Assembly: GCA_019695335.1 (NCBI GenBank)
Contig: JAIBAF010000043.1
Coordinates: 1 to 32,020 of the forward strand
Reading direction: 5' to 3'
DNA length: 32,020 bases
Origin: a bacterium
GTDB taxonomy: Bacteria; CLD3; SB21
Below the pieces are notes generated by a model. It was not told the DNA's origin, did not search any database, and saw only the letters and a program-made list of their open reading frames with translations. Of this stretch, positions 28,261 to 31,995 are shown in pieces (positions within the stretch are counted from its first letter, which is position 1; each line of letters begins with the position of its first letter). The translations under genes and the position numbers were made by a program.

Positions 28261-29556
28261 GTGTATCAGCAACTCCAACCTCCTAAAAATGGTGAAAAGA
28301 TCGTTATTCAGAACGGCCAATTAAAAGTTCCGGATAATCCGGTTATTCCTTTCATCGAAGGCGACGGCACCGGCCGTGATATCTGGCGTGCATCTCAACG
28401 TGTATTTGATGCGGCTGTACAAAAAGCGTACGGCGGAAAACGTACAATCGTGTGGTTCGAAGTTTTCGCCGGTGAAAAAGCGTTTACGCAATTCAATAAC
28501 TGGTTGCCGGACGATACTATCACCGCGTGCAAAGAATATTTAGTCAGCATCAAAGGGCCGTTGACAACCCCGATTGGCGGCGGTATTCGCAGTCTGAATG
28601 TGGCTTTGCGTAAACTACTCGATCTGTATGTATGTTTGCGCCCCGTGCGGTATTTTCAAGGCGTTCCCTCTCCCGTCAAACGTCCGCAAGACGTCGATAT
28701 GGTGATCTTCCGTGAAAATACCGAAGATATCTACACCGGTATTGAATTCGAAAACGGAACGGATGATAACAAACGGTTCAAAGTATTATTAAAAGAACAG
28801 TTTCCAAAAGAATATGCGAAAATCCGATTCCCTGACTCCGCCGGTATCGGCGTCAAGCCGGTGTCTGTCGAAGGGTCCGAACGTTTGATCCGTGCGGCGA
28901 TTCATTATGCTATCCAGAATAAACGCAAGAGCGTAACCTTTGCGCATAAGGGCAATATCATGAAGTATACGGAAGGCGCGTTCCGCAATTGGGGATACGC
29001 CTTAGCGGAAAGGGAATTTGCCGACAAAGTGTACACGTGGGATCAGTGGGAACGCACGAAAAAAGACAAAAGCGAAGAGGCGGCCAATGCAGAACAGAAA
29101 GCTGCGCTTGCGTCCGGAAAAATACTGATCAAAGACGTTATTGCCGATATTGTTTTCCAGCAAACGATCACGCGCGCCACGGAATTTGACATCATTGCAA
29201 CGATGAACCTTAACGGCGACTACTTGTCCGACGCTTTAGCCGCACAAGTTGGTGGCATTGGCATCGCACCCGGCGGTAATATTAATTATGTTACCGGTCA
29301 TGCTGTTTTCGAAGCAACGCACGGAACCGCCCCGAAATATGCCGACCTCGACAAAGTTAATCCCGGTTCTGTCATTCTTTCCGGCGACATGATGTTTCGC
29401 TACATGGGTTGGACGGAAGCCGCAGATCTGATTATCAAAGGCCTCGAAAAATCGATTGCTAATAAAACCGTGACGTACGATTTTGCGCGTTTGATGGACG
29501 GCGCCAAAGAAATCAAATGCAGCGAATTCGGCGACGAAATTATCAAGAATATGTAA
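28261..29556 (+). CDS. icd: NADP-dependent isocitrate dehydrogenase
   Basis: The 431-residue enzyme closely follows the E. coli Icd type and oxidises isocitrate to 2-oxoglutarate in the citric acid cycle. It shares [27 protein letters not shown] and [18 protein letters not shown]. Ser111 corresponds to Ser113 of E. coli, the site phosphorylated by AceK; no aceK gene is in the window. Lys359 and Tyr360 in APKYA match the pair that selects NADP, and the later Y-D-F-x-R motif is also kept, so NADP use is expected. Translation starts at GTG, supported by GAAGGAGA upstream. It lies 46 bp before a small membrane-protein gene with no terminator between. Confidence 0.97.
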
Positions 29557-29602: not shown

Positions 29603-29950
29603 ATGTCGGAACAAACTACTTCAGGAACGCCGGGCGGAAGACCGATGCCGACCGCAGAAGATATCGAAAAAGGTAAAGTCATGGCAATTCTCGGTTATCT
29701 GTGCTGCTTTTTGATTCCGTTATTGGCGGCCAAAGACAACCGCTTCTGCCAGTACCACCTCGAACAACAAATTCTGTTGTTCATCGTATTCCTGATCGGC
29801 GGCGTATTGTCGATCGTTCTGGTCGGCTATTTGATCCAATTATTTGGTTTCGTATTGTGGGTTATCGGAATTATCAATGCAGCGCAAGGAAAAGTTGCCG
29901 CGTTGCCAGTGATTGGTCAATACGGTGAAAAACTCAACATGGTCAAGTAA
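29603..29950 (+). CDS. Small membrane protein, DUF4870-like
   Basis: The 115-residue protein has a polar N-terminus rich in Ser, Thr, Gly and Pro, then G-K-V-M-A-I-L-G-Y-L-C-C-F-L-I-P-L-L (first membrane segment), a polar loop D-N-R-F-C-Q-Y-H-L-E-Q-Q, and two closely packed hydrophobic segments ending V-I-G-I-I-N-A-A-Q-G-K. The pattern of a His-Gln-Gln loop between helices fits the DUF4870 family, whose role is unknown. GAGGAGGA lies upstream of the ATG. Its stop codon overlaps the ATG of the next short frame as TAATG, suggesting that a coupled gene once followed. Such proteins often sit next to DUF2752 genes, and one lies downstream here. Confidence 0.75.
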   Translation: MSEQTTSGTPGGRPMPTAEDIEKGKVMAILGYLCCFLIPLLAAKDNRFCQYHLEQQILLFIVFLIGGVLSIVLVGYLIQLFGFVLWVIGIINAAQGKVAALPVIGQYGEKLNMVK

Positions 29951-30024
29951 TGATCGGTTTTTTTAAAGCCTTGACTGACGAAGAAAAAGGGAAATTGAAA
30001 TATATTTCCCTTTTCTTCTATTGA
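29950..30024 (+). pseudogene. Probable truncated 5' end of a DUF2752 gene
   Basis: A 24-codon frame starts at the ATG overlapping the stop of the preceding gene. Its peptide contains L-T-D-E-E-K-G-K-L-K-Y-I-S-L-F-F, which matches L-T-A-D-D-K-V-K-L-K-Y-I-S-L-F-F at the start of the DUF2752 protein encoded at 30762. The last 28 coding bases before divergence are identical in DNA. The frame then ends in TGA. I read it as the original start of the DUF2752 gene, cut off when the segment with the peptidase gene entered. The same bases also form a long hairpin (GAAGAAAA-A-GGGAAAT with ATTTCCC-TTTTCTTC, about 29980-30018), so a terminator is an alternative reading. Confidence 0.5.
29992..30019 (+). 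repeat. Left copy of an exact 28-bp direct repeat
   Basis: This 28-bp sequence, starting AAATTGAAATATATTTCCC, is repeated exactly at 30804-30831. The two copies bracket the peptidase gene and are 812 bp apart start to start. Both are read in the same frame as K-L-K-Y-I-S-L-F-F. Identity stops at both ends, although similarity at protein level extends further to the left. Confidence 0.9.
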
Positions 30025-30041
30025 CTCAAATGTAAAATGAT

Positions 30042-30758
30042 ATGATGAAAAAAATCGTACTTTATACTGCTGTTTTATCCAATATAATTGCTTTAGTTTA
30101 TACCATACTGCTTATATTTCCACAGCCATTATTTTCAAACGAAGTCCAAATTAAAAATTTTCAGATATATTCCCATCAGGCTATATCGGTGGAAAAAATA
30201 ATCGACAATGTTGACAAACAATTAAAAAAAATCCGAGATTTCGATGAAAACGACACTTACACCATTTTCTTTTGTGACTCCTATTTTGAGTATTTGATGC
30301 TGTATCCAATAGGTCCAAATTCTTTTGGTTCGACCAGCCCGTTGACGAATTATATTGTTCTTTCAGTCGCCGATTGGAATGAAGAAACAATCGTCGCTCG
30401 CAATTCACTTTCCATGAAGATCAAATCGGTATTGACACATGAAATCGGACATGTTTTAATTGACAAAAAATTCGGTAAGATTAGAAGTTTGTCTATTCCA
30501 AAATGGAAAGAGGAAGGCTATTGCGATTTCATCTCCAAAGATAGTTCTTTCGATATTAAAAAGGGAATTGCCCTGCTGAAGGCCAATCAACGAGAGGATT
30601 CTTATTCTTTCAAATATTTTGAATACAGGTTATGTGTGACTTATTTGTTTGAAATTGAAAAAGTAAATATGGAAACTTTCTTTGAAGGTGAGTATGATTT
30701 TGAGACTGTAAAAGCTAAAGCTCTGAAAGCAGTTCTTAATCAACAAATACAATTATAA
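30042..30758 (+). CDS. Membrane-anchored zinc-peptidase-like protein
   Basis: The 238-residue protein has an N-terminal hydrophobic segment (residues 4-26) that could be a signal anchor, followed by an external domain. It carries H-E-I-G-H in V-L-T-H-E-I-G-H-V-L, the zinc-binding HExxH motif, and further on W-K-E-E-G-Y-C-D-F, where a Glu would supply the third ligand as in gluzincin peptidases of the MA clan. Substrate and exact family are unknown. No Shine-Dalgarno sequence precedes the ATG. The gene is visibly richer in A and T than icd or its neighbours, and it is bracketed by the 28-bp direct repeats, both signs of later arrival. DUF2752 starts 3 bp after its stop codon. Confidence 0.7.
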   Translation: MMKKIVLYTAVLSNIIALVYTILLIFPQPLFSNEVQIKNFQIYSHQAISVEKIIDNVDKQLKKIRDFDENDTYTIFFCDSYFEYLMLYPIGPNSFGSTSPLTNYIVLSVADWNEETIVARNSLSMKIKSVLTHEIGHVLIDKKFGKIRSLSIPKWKEEGYCDFISKDSSFDIKKGIALLKANQREDSYSFKYFEYRLCVTYLFEIEKVNMETFFEGEYDFETVKAKALKAVLNQQIQL

Positions 30759-30761
30759 TCA

Positions 30762-31217
30762 ATGTTAATTCTCAACAATACATTAACGGCCGACGATAAA
30801 GTAAAATTGAAATATATTTCCCTTTTCTTCTTTGTTTTAGCTGTCAGTCTTCTTGTGGAACCTTTTGAAAAAGGTCGATTCGAAATTTGTATTTTTAAAA
30901 ACCTGACGAATTTACCCTGTCCGGGTTGCGGTTTCACTCGAAGTTTCGTTTATCTCGCTCACGGCGATCTCTGGAATTCACTGCGAATGAATCCGTTTGG
31001 CATTATTGTTTTTGGGTTTTGGGCGTGGGTGACGATAAAAGATTTGATATGGATTTTCTGGAGAAAATCTTTTCCTTTTTTGCCGGACCCGATTTGGTCT
31101 AAATCAAAAACCGGGTTTATTCTAGCGCTTCTGGTTTTTGGCATTATTCGGATGGCTACTCATTTTGATGAATTTCAGCCGATGCCAATTGTTCAACATT
31201 TATTGGCAATATTGTAA
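30762..31217 (+). CDS. DUF2752 membrane protein
   Basis: The 151-residue protein has the DUF2752 hallmark C-P-G-C-G-F-T-R-S-F (near residue 50) followed by H-G-D-L-W-N-S-L-R-M-N-P, with three or four membrane segments. The family is widespread in bacteria and of unknown function; the Cys pair and Arg are its conserved core. The ATG lies 3 bp after the peptidase stop codon and has no clear ribosome binding site, so translation may depend on coupling. Its first 23 residues resemble the 24-codon remnant at 29950, and its DNA contains the right copy of the 28-bp repeat. This suggests the present N-terminus came from a foreign copy. Confidence 0.88.
   Translation: MLILNNTLTADDKVKLKYISLFFFVLAVSLLVEPFEKGRFEICIFKNLTNLPCPGCGFTRSFVYLAHGDLWNSLRMNPFGIIVFGFWAWVTIKDLIWIFWRKSFPFLPDPIWSKSKTGFILALLVFGIIRMATHFDEFQPMPIVQHLLAIL
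30804..30831 (+). repeat. Right copy of an exact 28-bp direct repeat
   Basis: Identical to 29992-30019. This copy lies inside the DUF2752 gene and encodes part of its first membrane segment. Unlike the left copy, its flanks do not complete a long hairpin. Confidence 0.9.
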
Positions 31218-31228
31218 GCAGCGGTATT

Positions 31229-31253
31229 GTCAGTTCGAGCTTGTCGAGAACTG
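31229..31253. repeat. REP-like palindrome, first of a facing pair
   Basis: GTCAGTTCGAGC is followed by a short turn and GTCGAGAACTG, giving an imperfect palindrome with arms CAGTTC and GAACTG. Its reverse complement aligns along its whole length with the palindrome at 31265-31291. It lies 12 bp after the DUF2752 stop codon and may end that transcript. Confidence 0.6.
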
Positions 31254-31264
31254 TATTATCAACC

Positions 31265-31291
31265 GTCACTTCTCGATGAACTCGAAGTGAC
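31265..31291. repeat. REP-like palindrome, second of a facing pair
   Basis: GTCACTTC and GAAGTGAC form an eight-pair stem around TCGATGAACTC. Compared with the reverse complement of the first element, the core TTCTCGA and CTCGAA are kept, while the stem pair G-C is changed to C-G on both arms, so pairing is conserved. It lies 11 bp past the pepE stop codon on the convergent side. Confidence 0.6.
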
Positions 31292-31302
31292 ATGGCATAC
31301 AA

Positions 31303-31995
31303 TTACAATAAAAAATCCAACGACGATCCTGCCTGGTATTCCTCCGGAGCTTGTGTTTTTCTGAAAATTCGCGCGCTATTGCCTTTCAGCATCACGGCTT
31401 TATTCTCAATTCTCAGCATTCCTCCTTCTCGCAATCCGACAACAACCTGATCATTCATTTCATGAAATTCCATAATACGTTGTTCGCGCGTTTCTCCTTT
31501 ATGCGTTGAATTCGGATCCGGATCAAGATAGTGCGGATTGATATTGAACGGCACCAAGTTTAACGCATCAAATGACGGCGGATAAACAATCGGCATATCA
31601 TTGGTGGTTTTAATCGAGATGGTCGCCACATTGGTCCCGGCGCTTGCGCCGATGTATGGCATTCCGTTTTTAACTTTTTCGCGAATAGCCTCAATCACGT
31701 CTTCGTCGTACAGCCGTTTAAGAAGCCGGAATGTATTACCGCCTCCGATGTGAATCGCTTCGGCATTTTTTACAGCTTGTTTCGCGCTGTTGAATTCATG
31801 AATGGATTCGACTTGTATACCCATTTGCGTATACCGATCGCGGGTCTTTCCGGCATAACCATTCAGATCGTTCAACGCATACGGTACAAATAATAAATTT
31901 TTAACAGTACCCAGAAAATCTTTAATCTCACCGGCACAATGATCCAGATAGCCTCCGCCGTGTTGAGTTGAGTTACTGATCAGAAGAAGACGCAT
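31303..31995 (-). CDS. pepE: Dipeptidase E (peptidase family S51)
   Basis: The 230-residue cytoplasmic enzyme matches alpha-aspartyl dipeptidase PepE, which cleaves dipeptides with N-terminal aspartate. The serine nucleophile is Ser118 in G-A-S-A-G-T-N-V-A, with His155 in NPHYLD and Asp133 in T-N-D-M-P-I at the places matching Ser120, His157 and Asp135 of the enterobacterial enzyme. I-H-I-G-G-G-N-T-F-R-L-L is also typical. Length is normal. The ATG at 31995 has AAGGAG nine bases upstream. It is convergent with the DUF2752 gene, with a pair of REP-like palindromes between them. Confidence 0.95.
   Translation of the reverse strand: MRLLLISNSTQHGGGYLDHCAGEIKDFLGTVKNLLFVPYALNDLNGYAGKTRDRYTQMGIQVESIHEFNSAKQAVKNAEAIHIGGGNTFRLLKRLYDEDVIEAIREKVKNGMPYIGASAGTNVATISIKTTNDMPIVYPPSFDALNLVPFNINPHYLDPDPNSTHKGETREQRIMEFHEMNDQVVVGLREGGMLRIENKAVMLKGNSARIFRKTQAPEEYQAGSSLDFLL

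Follow-up and report, generated by a model that had tools for sequence, protein, structure and literature searches.

How did a 24-codon reading frame carrying one copy of an exact 28-bp repeat come to lie between a small membrane protein gene and a putative peptidase gene, and does the repeat record how the peptidase gene arrived? We addressed this in a 32,020-nucleotide stretch of bacterial DNA (the window), which is one whole contig of its genome (G000:C43). The preliminary description had proposed that a resident DUF2752 gene was entered, through recombination, by a segment carrying both the peptidase gene and a divergent DUF2752 start. The features concerned are, in order:

28261..29556, + strand: isocitrate dehydrogenase (icd), the upstream syntenic anchor; 97% identity in G001 and 70-80% in G004; named by sequence resemblance.
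29603..29950, + strand: DUF4870-like small membrane protein; 97% identity in the congener; sub-threshold match to PF09685.
29950..30024, + strand: 24-codon stub, a likely relic of a DUF2752 5' end; its start overlaps the DUF4870-like stop (TAATG); gapless 12/22 to the DUF2752 start; start codon lost in G001.
29980..30018, + strand: hairpin of terminator-like form, GAAGAAAAAGGGAAAT-loop-ATTTCCCTTTTCTTC, T-rich on its 3' side; indicated by fold z, terminator scans and synonymous recoding.
29992..30019, + strand: 28-bp repeat, left copy, which sits inside the hairpin.
30042..30758, + strand: HExxH putative membrane-anchored zinc peptidase, gluzincin-like, a probable insert; HEIGH ... WKEEGY; AT-rich; without a Pfam family.
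30762..31217, + strand: DUF2752 gene, intact (PF10825).
30804..30831, + strand: 28-bp repeat, right copy, equal to DUF2752 codons 15-24; a hairpin there is not beyond expectation.
31303..31995, - strand: peptidase E-like gene (pepE), the downstream syntenic anchor; 77% identity in G004; named by sequence resemblance.

The observations from which the preliminary description started hold: the 28-mer (AAATTGAAATATATTTCCCTTTTCTTCT) is present in two exact copies on either side of the HExxH gene, the left one within a short frame that begins by TAATG overlap with the preceding gene. The repeat is the longest exact direct repeat across the whole 32 kb. In 300 Markov sequences of 3.5 kb no such repeat exceeded 16, and none of the window shuffles matches the 28-mer within three mismatches. 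The gene labels fared unequally. The DUF2752 protein scores 71.4 bits against PF10825 (cut-off 27), whereas the DUF4870-like protein reaches 11.3 bits against PF09685 (cut-off 25), as does the G001 protein, and this second label is weak. DUF4870 is the HOTT family, related to Tic20 (PMC11628618). A literature search returned no paper on DUF2752.

The stub frame encodes 24 amino acids (MIGFFKALTDEEKGKLKYISLFFY). From its start codon to codon 23 it aligns without gaps with the start of the DUF2752 protein of the window, and 12 of the 22 residues after the methionine are identical (p < 1e-5). The likeness extends to the DUF2752 start of the congener, G001 (11/22), and recurs within that genome, between its own stub and its own DUF2752 protein (12/22). 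The distance from the start to the end of the common KLKY is 18 codons in both stub and DUF2752. Similarity ends leftward at the start codon (13/45 identical upstream) and rightward at codon 23-24 (6/30 beyond). The likeness that had been noticed beyond the exact repeat thus runs to the first codon, which makes the stub look like a true DUF2752 start rather than a mere 28-bp match. No Pfam family matches the stub, nor does it have the CPGCG core; it holds the N-terminal 23 codons only and therefore falls outside PF10825, whose profile begins at residue 43. The best reading of these comparisons is a DUF2752 gene, once presumably coupled to the DUF4870-like gene, whose 5' end was severed or duplicated to leave the stub. 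The genome has a second DUF2752 gene (on C78), which we rejected as the source of the stub: it is an old family gene behind a conserved 251-aa gene, with 37% core identity.

Among the nine genomes of the phylum in our collection, the block is present in one relative alone, the congener G001 (contig JABWBZ010000079.1, isolate MAG_43, 13,249 bp), with identical order between icd and pepE. Since the layout is common to both genomes, the rearrangement predates the divergence of the two species. A recent event confined to this genome is ruled out, as is an assembly artefact, the G001 layout having been assembled separately. In a related genus (G004), icd adjoins pepE: the roughly 100 bp that separate them contain a terminator-like hairpin, and all three block genes are absent; G006 agrees with this adjacency on partial data. 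We therefore take G004 to represent the empty site for the entire three-gene block. The gap between DUF2752 and pepE in the window (31226-31300) contains a palindromic hairpin (GTCACTTC/GAAGTGAC) that matches in position the terminator-like hairpin between icd and pepE in G004 (GTCACCCT/AGGGTGAC, L062:2617-2660), which places the block apparently upstream of the hairpin.

The comparison suggested at the outset was with a relative in which DUF4870 runs directly into an unbroken DUF2752 gene at this locus; none of the nine phylum genomes has this arrangement. The unrelated genome G139 (L087) does have DUF4870 followed directly by DUF2752, two bases apart and uninterrupted, and several other DUF2752 genes sit behind small membrane proteins, TM2-like or similar by eye. 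Together, these neighbourhoods make an ancestral coupled pair plausible, though unproven for this locus. In another unrelated genome (G069; L086 and L108), DUF2752 lies, as judged by eye, in a run with TM2-like, DUF4870-like and M48-like HExxH peptidase genes, and zinc peptidases may recur beside the DUF4870-DUF2752 pair.

GC content is 0.33 in the HExxH gene and averages 0.42 over the window. The surrounding genes leuS, icd (0.48), DUF4870-like (0.46) and pepE range from 0.44 to 0.48, and DUF2752 is intermediate (0.38). HExxH DNA differs by ~20% between the window and G001, and we found no relative of the gene among the other seven genomes of the phylum. Its AT-richness compared with its neighbours and its patchy distribution fit an acquired gene, and it was probably inserted. 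The protein combines a hydrophobic anchor at its N-terminus with the motifs HEIGH and WKEEGY, which in a distant homolog from an unrelated genome align with HEMTH and WKREGY. Judged by these motifs, it is a putative peptidase. It matched no Pfam family, had no credible match among solved structures and has no family members in viral contigs; two structure models both reached a pLDDT of 55, which is low confidence. Two distant relatives, L103 (G280) and L104 (G196), have a common (F/Y)PQ(P/S) motif right past the hydrophobic anchor, and together with the HExxH protein they look like an unnamed family for which Pfam has no model. The insertion of a peptidase segment into a resident DUF2752 gene is thus favoured by the stub homology, the G139 pair and the AT-rich HExxH gene, while the presence of the same layout in G001 and the lack of an uninterrupted ortholog count against the original form of the proposal.

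Does the exact repeat mark the insertion itself? The 49-nt block that includes it is 86% identical between its two copies in the window. Identity goes from left to right from 14/21 to 28/28 and then to none, a sharp switch. This switch, along with the uninterrupted pair in G139, is what one would expect if the peptidase gene, on one segment with a divergent DUF2752 start, had entered the resident gene by homologous exchange, the exact 28 bp being the crossover region. However, G001 has the identical layout and its stub matches its own DUF2752 start at 20/28 positions of the 28-mer (eight differences), so the 28 bp need not be a crossover tract. Moreover, no outside donor with HExxH beside DUF2752 was found, and L103, the best outside relative, has neither a DUF2752 nor a DUF4870 neighbour. 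We consider homologous exchange of this kind unlikely. Because the exact repeat is absent between the G001 copies, its exactness neither dates nor explains the insertion, and the earlier view of it as the trace of homologous exchange is weakened.

The same 28-mer occurs in three copies (the window stub, the window DUF2752 gene and the G001 stub), and the G001 DUF2752 gene alone deviates, at 8/28 positions. In the window, diverged codons 2-14 adjoin the perfect 28-mer. This 8:0 asymmetry of changes and the adjoining diverged codons favour conversion in the window lineage over simple retention; the asymmetry is moderately significant, as the changes are clustered in about 5-6 codons. The perfect identity in the window lineage is thus most likely the result of a later gene conversion with the live DUF2752 start. 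With two genomes to compare, conversion is the better explanation, and retention of the ancestral 28-mer without conversion a less probable one.

What has been kept at the stub in the congener is a hairpin, and no tiny protein. The position of the stub ATG reads ACG in G001, with one base missing in addition, and the frame there has no ATG, GTG or TTG start, which rules out the stub as a short conserved gene. Between the two species the 28-bp core is identical (28/28), against 14/24 (58%) in the flank comprising stub codons 1-8 and 8/25 (32%) from the core to the peptidase start; just 0.5% of 28-nt windows in neighbouring genes reach 28/28. Loop and 3' arm are 100% conserved in G001, and the 5' arm is kept through A-to-G changes that turn A-U into G-U pairs. 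The preliminary description had counted a hairpin conserved where the coding frame is not as evidence against itself, and this is the situation in G001. The survival of the hairpin after loss of the frame refutes a functional short gene and leaves the origin as a gene start standing. Three changes in or beside the 5' arm all fall on third codon positions (GAC/GAT, GAA/GAG, AAA/AAG), possibly reflecting an old coding constraint.

The hairpin is also more stable than the encoded peptide would require. Its fold has a z of -4.84 against shuffles in the window and -3.01 in G001, and at -17.5 kcal/mol it lies well below synonymous recodings of the same peptide (-6.6, sd 2.5; p 0.001). Excess structure over synonymous recoding is seen in the stubs of both species and in neither of the DUF2752 copies. 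The stem of 15-16 bp, with three G-C pairs in its core, is followed by T-rich sequence and stands 34-35 nt past the DUF4870-like stop in both species. Its form is like that of others at gene ends within the window, and terminator scans identify it as a stem-loop trailed by T-rich sequence where a gene ends, as in intrinsic terminators. It is most likely a transcription terminator or attenuator, as predicted from its fold and position, between icd-DUF4870 and peptidase-DUF2752. The stub has weak further DNA matches in the phylum, and the one inspected (L046, G004:C25:42228-42263) is a terminator-like hairpin (AAAAAGGGAAAT..ATTTCCCTATTATTATTT) past an unrelated, patatin-like gene, with a sequence close to that of the stub hairpin.

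Its terminator-like form and its conservation in G001 without a start codon would also suit a simpler case, namely that icd-DUF4870 simply has its intrinsic terminator here and that the DUF2752 likeness is a short segment copied between sites, with no stranded gene start. This seems improbable to us, given that the homology reaches the start codon at an equal codon distance and that the overlap of the ATG with the upstream stop is what a real coupled gene would show. Still more doubtful is a leader peptide, in which ribosomes would reinitiate at TAATG and translate the 24 codons through the hairpin, relieving termination before the peptidase gene: the overlap, the mere 17 nt that in the window separate the stub stop from the peptidase ATG, and the third-position changes near the left arm agree with it, but the frame lacks a start codon in G001. 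Target-site duplication by a transposon, earlier judged a poorer fit, finds no support: a repeat scan showed no inverted ends that would convincingly bound the insert, the insert is one HExxH ORF with no second gene of transposase size, and the two copies remain homologous, though diverged, outside the repeat.

The reading we prefer is that of a stranded gene start. An ancestral operon would have run icd - DUF4870-like - DUF2752, with DUF2752 translationally coupled at 29950. Before the split of the two known species, the AT-rich HExxH gene would have come in after codon ~23, on a segment that also brought another, divergent DUF2752 start, and the original start would have been cut off from its gene; the common layout shows this timing, and the mechanism is inferred. 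In the congener the stranded start, its start codon lost, is no longer a gene. Purine-rich Lys/Glu codons would pair with pyrimidine-rich Phe/Leu codons to give the conserved hairpin and the T-rich sequence after it, which may then serve as a terminator or attenuator separating icd-DUF4870 from peptidase-DUF2752. Gene conversion would later have made the two 28-mers of the window identical. Against this account, the locus is seen in two genomes alone, a pre-insertion ortholog was not found, and G004 has nothing between icd and pepE, so that a resident DUF4870-DUF2752 pair at this site has to be deduced. On balance, we regard the account as a whole as reasonably probable. More tentatively, a severed gene start may have been recruited as a predicted terminator or attenuator that splits its former operon, while exchanging sequence with its living parent by conversion.

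The rearrangement is old and fairly ordinary in kind, and the conserved hairpin is its interesting twist. If the reading is true, the locus would be a small, clean case in which breaking up an operon made a regulatory RNA structure out of coding sequence. In a membrane protein, the codons for the charged N-terminus and the Phe/Leu-rich first helix are partly self-complementary and would already be partway to a terminator. An exact repeat beside an insert, moreover, is not necessarily the insertion scar.

The locus can be compared with three known arrangements. As in operon insertions that leave a gene remnant at the junction, the order was probably broken by an AT-rich, patchy gene, with a truncated 5' copy of the next gene left behind; here, in contrast, the two species share the hairpin core of the remnant but differ in its flanks. 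As in DUF4870 (HOTT) - DUF2752 pairs, exemplified by the direct adjacency in G139, both families are represented, but the peptidase gene and the stub lie in between and the DUF4870 match falls short of the cut-off. Like a Rho-independent terminator, the stub has a stem-loop with an A-rich 5' side and a T-rich 3' side, about 35 nt past a stop codon; unlike the usual case, its sequence apparently derives from a protein-coding start, its core stem has few G-C pairs (three), and termination is predicted.
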